Positions 23,178 to 27,669 of a DNA stretch of 64,000 bases are shown piece by piece. Source of the DNA: Pararhodobacter zhoushanensis (lineage in GTDB: Bacteria > Pseudomonadota > Alphaproteobacteria > Rhodobacterales > Rhodobacteraceae). Within the stretch, counting starts at the first letter, position 1. The number at the start of each line of letters is the position of its first letter. The translations under genes were made by a program, and so were the position numbers. The stretch is taken from positions 1,987,501 through 2,051,500 of the forward strand of contig NZ_JAPDFL010000001.1 in assembly GCF_025949695.1 (NCBI RefSeq), read 5' to 3'. The notes beneath the pieces were generated by a model. The model saw nothing but the letters and a program-made list of their open reading frames with translations. It made no database searches and was not told the DNA's origin.

Positions 23178-25581
23178 ATGAGCGACTCGAACCGGCCCAG
23201 CCTGTCGTCCATGGCCTTTGCAGGCGCCACCGCCTCGCGTCAGGCGGCGTATCTGGATGGGCTGAACAGCGAGCAGCGCGCCGCCGTCGAGGCGCTGAAT
23301 GGCCCGGTGCTGATGCTGGCGGGCGCTGGAACCGGCAAGACCCGCGCCCTGACTGCCCGGATTGCGCATCTGATTTCCACCGGTACGGCGCGTCCGAATG
23401 AGATTTTGGCCGTTACCTTCACCAACAAAGCCGCGCGCGAGATGAAGCACCGCATCGCTGGCTTGCTGGGCGACACGGTTGAGGGGATGCCGTGGCTGGG
23501 CACCTTCCATTCGATCGGCGTGCGGTTCCTGCGGCGGCATGCGGAACTGGTGGGGCTTAAGTCGAACTTCACCATCATCGACACCGATGACCAGCTGCGG
23601 CTGATGAAGCAGCTGATTCAGGCCGCCAATCTGGATGACAAACGTTGGCCCGCGCGGGCGCTGGCCAATCTGATCGACGGCTGGAAGAACCGCGCATGGC
23701 GCCCGGATATGGTGCCGGGGGCCGAAGCGGGCGCGTTCAACAACCGCGGGACCGAGCTGTATGAGGCCTATCAAGAGCGGCTGCGCACGCTGAATGCCTG
23801 TGATTTCGGTGACTTGCTGCTGCATGTGGTGACGATCTTCCAGCAGAACCCCGATGTGCTGGCGCAATACCAGCGCTGGCTGCGGTTCATTCTGGTGGAC
23901 GAGTATCAGGATACTAACGTCGCCCAGTACCTGCTGCTGCGGCTTCTGGCGCAGGGGCATCAGAACATCTGCTGTGTCGGTGATGACGACCAGTCGATCT
24001 ATGGCTGGCGCGGGGCCGAGGTGGGCAACATCCTGCGGTTCGAGCGGGACTTTCCGGGTGCCAAGGTGATCCGGCTTGAGCAGAACTACCGCTCGACCCC
24101 GCATATTCTGGCCGCGGCCTCGGGCGTGATCAGCGCCAATGAGGGGCGGCTGGGCAAGACCCTGTGGACCGAGGCGACCGAGGGCGAAAAGGTCCGCCTG
24201 ATCGGCCATTGGGACGGCGAGGATGAGGCGCGCTGGATCGGCGATGAGGTCGAGGCGCTGGAGCGTGGCACGCGCGGGCTGGACCCGATCAGCCCCGATG
24301 ACATGGCGATTCTGGTGCGCGCCAGCCATCAGATGCGCGCGTTTGAGGACCGGTTTCTGACCATCGGCCTGCCGTATCGCGTGGTCGGTGGCCCGCGATT
24401 CTATGAGCGGCTCGAGATTCGCGATGCGATGGCCTATTTCCGCCTCGCCGTCAGCCCGACCGACGATCTGGCGTTCGAGCGGGTGGTGAACAACCCCAAG
24501 CGTGGCATTGGCGACAAAGCGCAGCAGACCATCCAGCGCGTCGCGCGCGAGGCCGAGGTGCCGCTGCTGATGGGCGCGGCGCTGGTGTTGCGCGACGGGC
24601 TCCTGGGCGGCAAGGCGGCGGGCAATCTGCGCGCGTTCATCGAAAGCATGGCGCGCTGGCACGATATGGTGCGCAGCCCGGTGGTGTCGGCCAATGATGA
24701 TCTGGTGATTGAGGACGACGTGCCGCCGCCGAGCGTCTCGCATGTGCGGCTGGCCGAGATGATGCTGGACGAGATCCGGCTATACCGCCATGTGGCAGGC
24801 GCAAAAGACGCCCGAGGCCGAGGGGCGGCTAGAGAACCTGAAGGAACTGATCAAGGCGCTGGAGGGCTTCGACAGCCTGCAAGGCTTTCTGGAGCATGTC
24901 GCGCTGATCATGGATAACGAGGCCGAGGAATCGCAGGAGAAGGTCACCATCATGACCCTGCACGCGGCCAAGGGTCTGGAATTCCCCGCCGTGTTCCTGC
25001 CTGGCTGGGAAGACGGGCTGTTCCCCAGCCAGCGCAGTCTGGACGAAAGCGGGCTCAAGGGCCTGGAAGAGGAACGCCGTCTGGCCTATGTCGGCATCAC
25101 GCGGGCCGAGCGGCTGTGCATGATCTCGTTCGCGGCCAACCGCCGGGTGTTCGGGCAGTGGCAAAGCCAGCTGCCCAGCCGGTTCATCGACGAATTGCCG
25201 CCCGAGCATGTCGAAGTTCTGACGCCGCCGGGCATTCATGGCGGTTTCAGTGCAGGCAAAGCGCATCACGCGACGCCGGTCGATGATGACTCGCTCGAAG
25301 GCCGCGCCACGCGGGCCGATGTCTATAACGCGCCGGGCTGGAAACGCATGCAGTCGCGGGGCCGGGTTGCCCCGGCGGCGCCCAAGGCCCTGCGCGGCTC
25401 GGCCGAGCCGTCGGTGCATTTTTCGGCCGGCGAGCGGGTGTTCAACAAGAAGTTCGGCACCGGCACGATCATCGCGGTCGATGGCGACAAGCTGGCCGTG
25501 GCCTTCGATCAGGCCGGGGAAAAGCACATCCTGTCGCAATATGTGCTGCCCGCTGACGGAATGGACGACGTTCCCTTCTGA
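23178..25581 (+). CDS. uvrD: UvrD/Rep-type DNA helicase II, interrupted by a frameshift
   Basis: SF1A 3'-5' helicase for nucleotide excision and mismatch repair. Walker A GAGTGKT (about residue 50), DExx box VDEYQDTN (about 240), QNYRSTPHIL and C-terminal VTIMTLHAAKGLEFPAVFLPG and YVGITRAE motifs are visible, ending in the usual KFGTGTIIAVDGDKLAVAF tail. The frame breaks at about 24774: removing one A turns DEIRLYRHV into DESGYTAMWQAQKTPEA, and the whole is 800 residues. Since every motif on both sides is intact, a one-base sequence error is more likely than gene loss. Confidence 0.92.
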
Positions 25582-25668: not shown

Positions 25669-25710
25669 AAAAAAGCGCGGTTGCCCAGGGAGGAGGAGGG
25701 GCAACCGCGC
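25669..25710 (-). terminator. Rho-independent terminator of the DUF1127-RNA transcript
   Basis: Stem GCGCGGTTGCC / GGCAACCGCGC (25675-25685 and 25700-25710) followed on the minus strand by six T. The loop carries the CCTCCTCCC motif, so one structure serves both as RNA element and terminator. Confidence 0.85.
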
Positions 25711-25744
25711 CGTTTCGCGGGACAGGGGAGGAGGTCTGGCCCGC
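25669..25744 (-). ncRNA. CcsR-like (cuckoo) RNA unit 4, two hairpins with CCTCCTCCC loops, terminator at its end
   Basis: On the minus strand, hairpin 25717-25744 and hairpin 25675-25710 each expose CCTCCTCCC in the loop (GGGAGGAGG on plus at 25726 and 25688). The last hairpin has an 11-bp perfect stem and is followed by T6 (25669-25674), a classical Rho-independent terminator ending the array. The loop sequence is complementary to a Shine-Dalgarno GGAGG, so these RNAs could sequester ribosome binding sites. Known relatives: CcsR1-4 of R. sphaeroides. Confidence 0.85.
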
Positions 25745-25753
25745 CGTCTATGG

Positions 25754-25820
25754 GGCGCAGCGCCTCAGGGAGGAGGAGGAGCCGCCGCGCCATAACGAAA
25801 ACCGAGGGAGGAGGTTCGGT
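25754..25820 (-). ncRNA. CcsR-like (cuckoo) RNA unit 3
   Basis: Hairpins 25801-25820 (5-bp stem ACCGA/TCGGT) and 25754-25791 (longer, imperfect GC stem) carry the motif at 25806 and 25768. Spacing between the motifs is 38 bases, the same as in units 1 and 4. Between units 2 and 3 lies an extra plain hairpin GCCCCG-GAATT-CGGGGC (25847-25863) without the motif. Confidence 0.8.
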
Positions 25821-25860
25821 CGTCGTATCTGTTTTGGAGCCCTTCGGCCCCGGAATTCGG

Positions 25861-25934
25861 GGCGCGGTTCCCAGGGAGGAGGAGGGGAACCGCGCCGGAG
25901 TGCTGTCGGCCCAGGGAGGAGGAGGGGCCTAAGC
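25861..25934 (-). ncRNA. CcsR-like (cuckoo) RNA unit 2
   Basis: Hairpins 25902-25934 and 25861-25896 carry the motif at 25914 and 25874 (40 bases apart). The second has a perfect 11-bp stem GGCGCGGTTCC/GGAACCGCGCC, nearly the same as the terminal hairpin of unit 4, suggesting the units arose by duplication. Confidence 0.8.
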
Positions 25935-25942
25935 TACTGGTC

Positions 25943-26014
25943 GGAACCTGCCGCTGGGAGGAGGTAGCAGCGGTTCCTTGCACGATCGGCCCAGGGAGGA
26001 GGAGGGGCCGTCGT
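25943..26014 (-). ncRNA. CcsR-like (cuckoo) RNA unit 1
   Basis: First unit after the DUF1127 stop codon. Hairpins 25982-26014 (ACGA(T)CGGCC/GGCCGTCGT) and 25943-25977 (GGAACC/GGTTCC outer stem) carry the motif at 25994 and 25956, 38 bases apart. In R. sphaeroides the RNAs are processed from the transcript that begins at the DUF1127 gene promoter; the same is expected here since no separate promoter is evident. Confidence 0.8.
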
Positions 26015-26052
26015 TCTGGTCGCAGGCCCAAGGGCCTGGAATTCTTTGCCTT

Positions 26053-26274
26053 TTAGACGTCGCGGCCGTAGGCTGCTTCGTAAGCCAGGCGGGTGATCAT
26101 GCTGCGGCTGATGCCCAGATCGGCCAGCTCGCGGGTGGTCAGTGCGTTCAGTTCGTTGTAGGTGCGAACATAAACGCGCGAGCGGGTCCAAGCGGCGCTC
26201 AGCGAACCGAAAGCCGAAGCGATCTGGCCAAAGAGGCCAAAGCCGCGGGTCTGCTGGGTTGATGCGTATGCCAT
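26053..26274 (-). CDS. ccaF1: DUF1127 small RNA-binding-type protein (CcaF1-like)
   Basis: 73 residues from the ATG at 26272-26274 (MAYASTQQTRGFGLFGQIAS). The C-terminal half carries the DUF1127 signature: YVRTYNELNALTTRELADLG, then ISRSMITRLAYEAAYG. In R. sphaeroides the equivalent protein (RSP_6037, CcaF1) is encoded directly upstream of CcsR1-4 and binds RNA. The identical arrangement here, with the hairpin array starting 38 bases past the stop, supports the same role in stress-response RNA control. An in-frame ATG seven codons upstream is an alternative start. Confidence 0.88.
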   Translation of the reverse strand: MAYASTQQTRGFGLFGQIASAFGSLSAAWTRSRVYVRTYNELNALTTRELADLGISRSMITRLAYEAAYGRDV

Positions 26275-26331: not shown

Positions 26332-26359
26332 AGATGGACTTTATGCTGCACTTGCACAA
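26332..26359 (-). promoter_or_regulatory. Candidate promoter of the DUF1127-CcsR transcript
   Basis: On the minus strand TTGTGC, a 16-base spacer and CCATCT lie 58-85 bases upstream of the start codon. This loosely resembles a heat-shock-sigma promoter, which would fit the RpoHI/RpoHII control known for the R. sphaeroides locus, but the match to the -10 is weak. The remaining gap (26360-26580) holds a hairpin CGCTGC-TAT-GCAGCG (26376-26390) and presumably the mrp promoter. Confidence 0.3.
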
Positions 26360-26580
26360 TCCCTCGAATGAGCAACGCTGCTATGCAGCGAAGTCATGGC
26401 GACGTAGGGTAACCCAAGCGTCTGAGTTCCCGGCGCGCGGCCCGATCCGCTCCGGGCCCGCCTCGCGGTTTCGCAGGTGCAGCATTTTTCGCCACAGCGT
26501 GCTTAATCGGGTGGGGGTTGCCTTGTGCGTAAACACACTCAGGTTAGGCGCAATGATTCGGAATAAAGGGGGCTTTGCCC

Positions 26581-27669
26581 ATGTCATCCAGCTCGGCGCC
26601 GACGCGCGAAGAGATTCTTGCAGCCCTGAAGGGCGTGGCGCTGCCGAAGGGCGGTGATCTGGTCAGTGCCGATTTGATTCGGGCGCTGGTCGTCGATGGC
26701 GGCGCGGTGCGCTTTGTGATCGAGGCCGAGACGGCTGACGAGGCCCGCGCGCTGGATCCGGTGCGCGCAGAGGCCGAGCGTGTCGTGGCGGCATTGCCCG
26801 GCGTGGCGCGGGTATCGGTGGCGATGACGGCGCATGGCCCGGCGCCCAAGCAGCAAGCGCCCAAGGGTGAGGCCCCTTCGCTCAGCATCGGTCGTCACCC
26901 GACGCCCGGCCCGTCGGTGGTGCCCGGCGTCAAGCGGATCATCGCCGTCGGCTCGGGCAAGGGCGGGGTGGGCAAGTCCACCGTGTCCGCCAACCTTGCC
27001 GTGGCGATGGCGCGCGAGGGCTGGCGCGTGGGTCTGGTCGATGCCGATATCTACGGCCCCAGCCAGCCGCGCATGATGGGCGTGTCCAAGCGACCGGCCT
27101 CGCCCGATGGCAAAACGATCATTCCGCCGGTGGCGCATGGCGTGCGGGTGATCTCGATCGGGCTGATGCTGCCCGAGGATCAGGCGTTGATCTGGCGCGG
27201 TCCGATGCTGATGGGCGCGTTGCAACAGTTGATGACGCAGGTGGCATGGGGCGATCTGGATGCGCTGATCATCGACATGCCGCCGGGGACTGGGGATGTG
27301 CAGATGACGCTGTGCCAGAAGTTCGACGTGACCGGCGCAATTGTGGTGTCGACGCCGCAGGACGTGGCGCTTCTGGATGCGCGCCGGGCGCTGAACGCGT
27401 TCTCCACGCTGAAAACGCCGGTGATCGGGCTGATCGAGAACATGTCGACCTTCATCTGCCCCAACTGCGGCCATGAGGAGCATATCTTCGGCGACGGTGG
27501 CGTTGCGCGCGAGGCCGAGAAGACCGGCATCCCGTTCCTTGGCTCGCTGCCGTTGACGCTGGAGGTCAGGCTGTCGGGGGATGGCGGTGTCCCCGTGGCG
27601 GCCACGGACAGCGCCGTTGCTGAAAGCTATCGGCGGATCGCGCGGGGGCTGATGGCGCAACTGGCCTGA
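26581..27669 (+). CDS. apbC: Mrp/ApbC (NBP35-like) iron-sulfur cluster carrier ATPase
   Basis: 362 residues from ATG 26581. An N-terminal MIP18/DUF59-like domain (about 5-80), a variable linker and a deviant Walker P-loop ATPase domain ([17 protein letters not shown], about 122-138; [27 protein letters not shown]). The CPNC motif (in [15 protein letters not shown]) is the Fe-S cluster ligand pair shared by the dimer. It delivers Fe-S clusters to apoproteins in the cytoplasm. A GGGGG stretch precedes the ATG. A terminator follows at 27701-27734. Confidence 0.95.

Follow-up and report, generated by a model that had tools for sequence, protein, structure and literature searches.

The window, a stretch of 64,000 nucleotides from Pararhodobacter zhoushanensis, carries on its minus strand a gene for a small RNA-binding-type protein, a DUF1127 protein of 73 amino acids, and, directly after it on the same strand, a run of eight hairpins with a shared loop motif (Table 1). 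Read on the plus strand the motif is GGGAGGAGG, present in eight exact copies that start at 25688, 25726, 25768, 25806, 25874, 25914, 25956 and 25994 (spacings 38, 42, 38, 68, 40, 42 and 38), where 0.78 copies are expected by chance (standard deviation 1.02, largest count 4; none of 100 shuffles with eight); read on the minus strand, the copies become CCUCCUCCC. These are exactly the positions and spacings given in the preliminary description. Two motifs 20-50 bases apart occur six times in the whole genome of 4.65 Mb, each time inside this array.

On the promoter side of the DUF1127 gene lies a divergent plus-strand gene for an Mrp/ApbC-type ATPase (26575-27669), and a plus-strand gene for a UvrD/PcrA-type helicase, ending at 25581, converges on the other side of the array. 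The helicase region (23178-25581) consists of two overlapping frames, 23178-24917 and 24790-25581, possibly through a frameshift or a sequence error.

Table 1. Features of the DUF1127 gene and hairpin array, in transcript order (window coordinates)
Feature	Position	Strand	Basis or remark
Promoter-like element: TTG 26359-26357, N19, CCATCT 26337-26332	26332..26359	-	conserved upstream of ccaF1
DUF1127 protein gene (73 aa), very probable ccaF1 orthologue	26053..26274	-	PF06568, 45.5 bits (cut-off 23.3)
Motif-free small hairpin before the array	26023..26038	-	fold
Motif hairpin 1	25982..26014	-	motif and fold; GGCCCCTCCTCCTCCCTGGGCCGATCG common to 12 of 80 loci
Motif hairpin 2, ACCUCCUCCC loop	25943..25977	-	motif and fold
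Motif hairpin 3	25899..25938	-	motif and fold; with hairpin 4, RF02791 at 36.7 bits
Motif hairpin 4	25861..25896	-	motif and fold
Motif-free small hairpin in the 68-base gap, then A-rich unpaired bases	25836..25851	-	fold
Motif hairpin 5, ACCUCCUCCC loop	25795..25826	-	motif and fold
Motif hairpin 6	25754..25791	-	motif and fold
Motif hairpin 7, ACCUCCUCCC loop	25717..25744	-	motif and fold
Motif hairpin 8, terminator-like, T6 end	25669..25716	-	motif and fold; with hairpin 7, RF02791 at 42.7 bits; covariation

The 384 bases from 26052 to 25669 on the minus strand have a folding energy of -176 kcal/mol, while shuffled versions average -145.08 (standard deviation 6.18, z -5.0), and the fold places all eight motifs in hairpin loops, as had been claimed. 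The further claims that the array begins 38 bases past the DUF1127 gene (stop at 26053, first motif hairpin from 26014) and that it ends in a terminator-like minus-strand hairpin with T6 hold as well. The longer loop CUCCUCCUCCCU occurs in hairpins 1, 3, 4, 6 and 8, the remaining three having ACCUCCUCCC. A scan for sigma-70 promoters and terminators, the latter with a loop limit of 8, gave no minus-strand site; the loop of the last hairpin has 12 bases.

Conservation of the locus

The nearest named genome is that of P. zhoushanensis ZQ420, with 95.95% identity over 4 kb. Among 40 genomes searched, the window's own included, the DUF1127 protein has matches at E <= 1e-3 in 24, and identity to 16 relatives is 36-82%. 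Sixteen of the 17 other genomes of the genus match, and each of the 16 best matches has 3-11 coding-strand motifs after it; five of six genomes from other genera of the family match, and in four of these five an array of 3 to 15 motifs lies close to the gene. One of these other-genus loci (L028) has its 15 motifs after a short DUF1127 protein of 64 amino acids. The loci of two class-level matches and of four lesser matches (L037-L040) contain no motif array, and the 3-kb loci of the five further DUF1127 genes in the window's own genome (one of them G000:C1:4004734-4004838) hold not a single motif.

The preliminary description had made its reading depend on the conservation of the hairpins in related genomes, and they are conserved: in a collection of named genomes, each of the 80 best among 277 relatives carries 3-16 coding-strand motifs within 1.5 kb after the stop; in the same 80, no motif after the stop is reversed, and the upstream flank examined contains no motif. 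An mrp gene stands in the flank of 78 of 79 loci (the exception being L116) and a helicase gene in that of 45 of 79. The array has both neighbors in L053 and L056, which are of the sphaeroides type, and likewise in the window, which therefore has the genomic place seen in the R. sphaeroides group; R. sphaeroides 2.4.1 was not among the loci returned, and these two Cereibacter-type loci stand in for it. The compared loci are orthologous and syntenic, so counts across them are not independent. Across the family, 296 of 394 genomes have one or more motif pairs spaced at 20-50 bases, the reversed control pattern being present in some genomes at lower counts. The match to a plasmid record, that of Paracoccus sp. 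AK26, covers 38% of the query. A genome of the family carries 25 motif pairs (G198:C1:334949-335425), and the listed places include a three-hairpin unit in near-identical repeats; this array has probably expanded in tandem recently.

The stems are conserved by pairing. At least five pairs close 609 of 633 motifs in 79 loci (a set that, as for the gap, grouping and flank counts, excludes L057, the second contig of C. johrii), compared with 26% when the flanks are shuffled. For the last hairpin, aligned in 78 of the 80 loci (70 distinct; L050 and L057 were left out where the flank ended), 90.3% of cells pair versus 74.5% in shuffles, and both sides have changed in 12 of 13 pairs, which one of 500 shuffles achieves. 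Its covariation score is 0.425 against 0.175 in shuffles (none of 500 reaching it) and 0.07-0.20 with slid partners. The invariance of the loops is in part by construction, since motifs were chosen by exact match. A run of T4 or longer lies within 40 bases past the last motif in 50 of 79 relatives.

Relation to known RNA families

By comparison, the conserved unit comprises a promoter-like element, a DUF1127 gene and co-oriented CCUCCUCCC-loop hairpins with covarying stems, beside mrp. The array is a real and conserved locus of a kind already known. The earlier identification as a ccaF1-CcsR or cuckoo RNA locus is borne out by the orthology of the DUF1127 gene, the co-orientation of every one of the 80 arrays, the near-constant mrp neighbour, the covarying stems and the promoter-like element, which C. 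johrii has too. Very probably, then, the ccaF1-CcsR (CIN1, cuckoo RNA) locus has its Pararhodobacter orthologue in the window, and the orthologue works by the stress sRNA mechanism proposed below. A studied stress sRNA locus is thereby placed in Pararhodobacter with family-wide support.

The closest likeness is to ccaF1 (RSP_6037)-CcsR1-4 of R. sphaeroides, likewise a DUF1127 gene followed by same-strand CCUCCUCCC-loop hairpins and a terminator; the sphaeroides-type loci L053 and L056 share the window's eight motifs as well as mrp, and C. johrii has the promoter-like element in the same place. The differences are in spacing (2+2+2+2 in CcsR1-4 versus 4+4 in the window) and in the score with the two-hairpin CcsR1 model. 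A covariance-model search, which the preliminary description had proposed, found no Rfam family in the window at its cut-off. RF02791 (CcsR1) does align to hairpin pairs, namely 7+8 (42.7 bits, E 5.8e-9), 3+4 and, at 18.1 bits, 1+2, yet its best score stays below the cut-off of 65.3 bits. As a positive control, four of 16 loci searched (L053, L056, L062 and L067, all Cereibacter-type) pass with 83.8-106.2 bits, in each case by the first pair only. RF02791 therefore covers CcsR1 more than CcsR2-4, and missing its cut-off says little against kinship. Covariance models fixed at two or three hairpins miss arrays of this kind at their cut-offs.

The cuckoo RNA family (Reinkensmeier and Giegerich 2015, as described in PMC4504443 and others) is likewise defined by adjacent hairpins with a fixed loop motif and variable stems. 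Its members are described with 2-4 hairpins per RNA, whereas the window has eight in one run; these form two groups of four adjacent hairpins, with CCUCCUCCC loops and covarying stems. The rhizobial RNAs ar14/SmelA075, SmelA099 and NfeR1 (RF02344) are reported to have three or four CCUCCUCCC hairpins (PMC3927594, PMC10746234). Matches to RF02344 in the window, at 44.9 and 34.3 bits, lie below its cut-off of 58.8 bits, and NfeR1 differs in its reported sigma-70-type promoter. SisA-D of Caulobacter crescentus are reported as sibling sRNAs with a common 10-mer anti-Shine-Dalgarno motif (PMC12559287); they differ in being separately controlled and in having a sponge, CrfA.

Promoter, proposed mechanism and targets

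In 51 of 80 loci, C. johrii included, ccaF1 is preceded by the element TTG-N19-CCATNT, which occurs with spacers of 14-18 or 20-25 in none of the 80; reversed sequences have none. The variant CYATNT gives 16 of 80 at spacer 18, 51 at 19 and one at 23, with one control hit at 22, and TATNT gives 19 of 80 at spacer 19 and four at others, with one control hit at 23. Because the promoter of R. sphaeroides ccaF1 is reported, in a figure legend of PMC10253847, as an RpoHI/RpoHII promoter, RpoH control is by analogy likely for the window locus too. A TAT at -12, reported for another RpoH promoter (PMC10673084), is absent from the CCATCT element. A single RpoH match in the genome exceeds the cut-off, at 365.2 bits; three others fall short of it (273.5, 258.5 and 140.4 bits).

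We propose the following model, in which, for Pararhodobacter, we infer transcription, processing, targets and every other step beyond the anatomy. A stress promoter of the RpoH type would drive a single transcript of the ccaF1 orthologue and the array. Its 5' part would be translated into a CcaF1-like protein, and its 3' part would be cut into small RNAs by RNase E under the influence of that protein, as PMC10253847 describes for CcaF1 and RNase E in R. sphaeroides; Hfq, RNase E and PNPase are treated in PMC7866481, and PMC8625941 also belongs to the literature on the locus. With Hfq, for which the genome has a gene (111.8 bits), the C-rich loops would then pair to G-rich Shine-Dalgarno sites and leave metabolic and other mRNAs less translated or less stable. 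The CCUCCUCCC loop has been read as anti-Shine-Dalgarno (PMC3927594, PMC10746234).

The genome has 17 occurrences of the pattern GGAGGAGG-N3-10-ATG, compared with three of the reversed pattern. A Pfam scan covering ten of the 17 frames that follow these sites gave an FMO-like protein, malic enzyme, a molybdopterin-binding protein, acyl-CoA dehydrogenase, a GCV_T folate-binding protein, DctP (two), a zinc alcohol dehydrogenase, a C92 peptidase and one frame without a match. The exact GGAGGAGG start site is kept in four of 17 genus loci for malic enzyme and in three of 14 for acyl-CoA dehydrogenase, the own genome counted in both. Because conservation of these sites within the genus is no more than partial, no target is established.

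Number of RNAs and alternative readings

One claim of the preliminary description, that two hairpins per RNA and four RNAs are arranged here just as in R. sphaeroides, is not supported by the spacing. With gaps of up to 50 bases taken to form one group, the window array (38-42-40-68-38-42-38 in transcript order) falls into 4+4, whereas C. azotoformans (L053, 39-66-38-76-40-73-40) and C. johrii (L056, 39-66-37-76-39-74-39), which we take to belong to the R. sphaeroides group, are spaced 2+2+2+2. That grouping is found in five of 79 loci, these two among them, and 2+2+2 in 18; most others are mixed, and 4+4 occurs in two, the window's nearest kin (L041) and Paracoccus gahaiensis. Because the grouping counts exact motifs, a group is broken up wherever one of its motifs has decayed. 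Gaps of at least 60 bases contain a motif-free hairpin in 162 of 162 and 30 of 30 cases, compared with 2 of 361 short gaps, a count that lacks a chance control and is not proof. Judged from spacing alone, two four-hairpin RNAs would perhaps be expected, the number and size of the RNAs being the least certain step of the model.

The fours may, however, be two fused pairs that could still be cut into pairs, since the two-hairpin RF02791 gives alignments over hairpins 7+8, 3+4 and, with a weak score, 1+2. The same alignments speak for a reading to which we give somewhat less than an even chance: the locus is the same, and its precursor is cut into four two-hairpin RNAs as in R. sphaeroides, RNase E having no need of wide spacing between pairs. 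In its favor, hairpin 1 has a 27-base stretch in common with one Cereibacter-type pair, and nine consecutive bases are unpaired in the gap from hairpin 6 to hairpin 7 of L041. Against it, the pairs of L053 and L056 are set 66-76 bases apart, whereas the hairpins within each four are spaced at 38-42 bases, and L041 has 13 unpaired A/U in its middle 68-base gap versus 1-5 in each of its others. A tentative suggestion, in our view rather doubtful, is that the locus forms a multivalent anti-Shine-Dalgarno array that changes fast, with hairpins gained, lost and regrouped from species to species, tuning the number of loops per RNA, so that two four-loop RNAs would here replace four two-loop ones. 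Its basis is the range of 3-16 exact motifs per locus, in pairs in the sphaeroides type and in fours in the window, and, if it is true, loops per RNA would set the dose or co-operativity of mRNA blocking. The natural variation between 4+4 and 2+2+2+2 offers a way to ask if single hairpins, pairs or entire RNAs are the units that act.

Action in trans may itself be doubted. The hairpins might mainly stabilize or terminate the ccaF1 mRNA, or serve as a landing site for the CcaF1-like protein, and both the terminator-like last hairpin and the reported binding of CcaF1 to RNA, with an effect on its own ccaF1-CcsR transcript (PMC10253847), would fit. We regard this as improbable: one hairpin would suffice for such a role, the 3-16 exact loop copies on covarying stems indicate that the loops are under selection, and flhR mRNA is reported as a target of CcsR1-4 (PMC8307010). 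The opposite strand might act instead, its GGGAGGAGG loops forming a CsrB-like sponge for CsrA. CsrA prefers GGA in hairpin loops, and the plus-strand hairpins do present it there, but the motif lies on the DUF1127 strand in all of the best 80 of 277 loci and the T-run is on the minus strand. We reject the sponge, to which we give virtually no chance: the genome (97% complete) has no CsrA match, and the same search finds CsrA in three of 14 controls.

Arrays on viral contigs

Among the IMG/VR loci (within L142-L196), 55 viral contigs have three CCTCCTCCC at hairpin spacing. By eye, 47 of the 55 show a spacing of 35-45 bases and a last stem of at least 11 pairs, and the 12 bases that follow the array sort 37 of the 55 into two groups. 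Eight of nine viral loci tested pass the Rfam cut-off for ar14, with up to 109.2 bits. The ar14-type arrays of L168 (5113-5233), L171 (4477-4596) and L160 (3533-3648) look phage-borne, as their neighbors are genes for phage helicases, exonucleases, endolysin and tail fibers. Five related named phages, including 16-3 and AP-16-3, have no array in the stretches compared, and our search of mostly freely available literature returned no report of phage-borne arrays of this kind. The ar14 arrays of L174 (10617-10741) and L157 (757-1157) are each close to the end of a contig and are followed there by a DUF1127-like match; they are therefore probably the host flank of a provirus, although L174 also carries a phage RNA polymerase.
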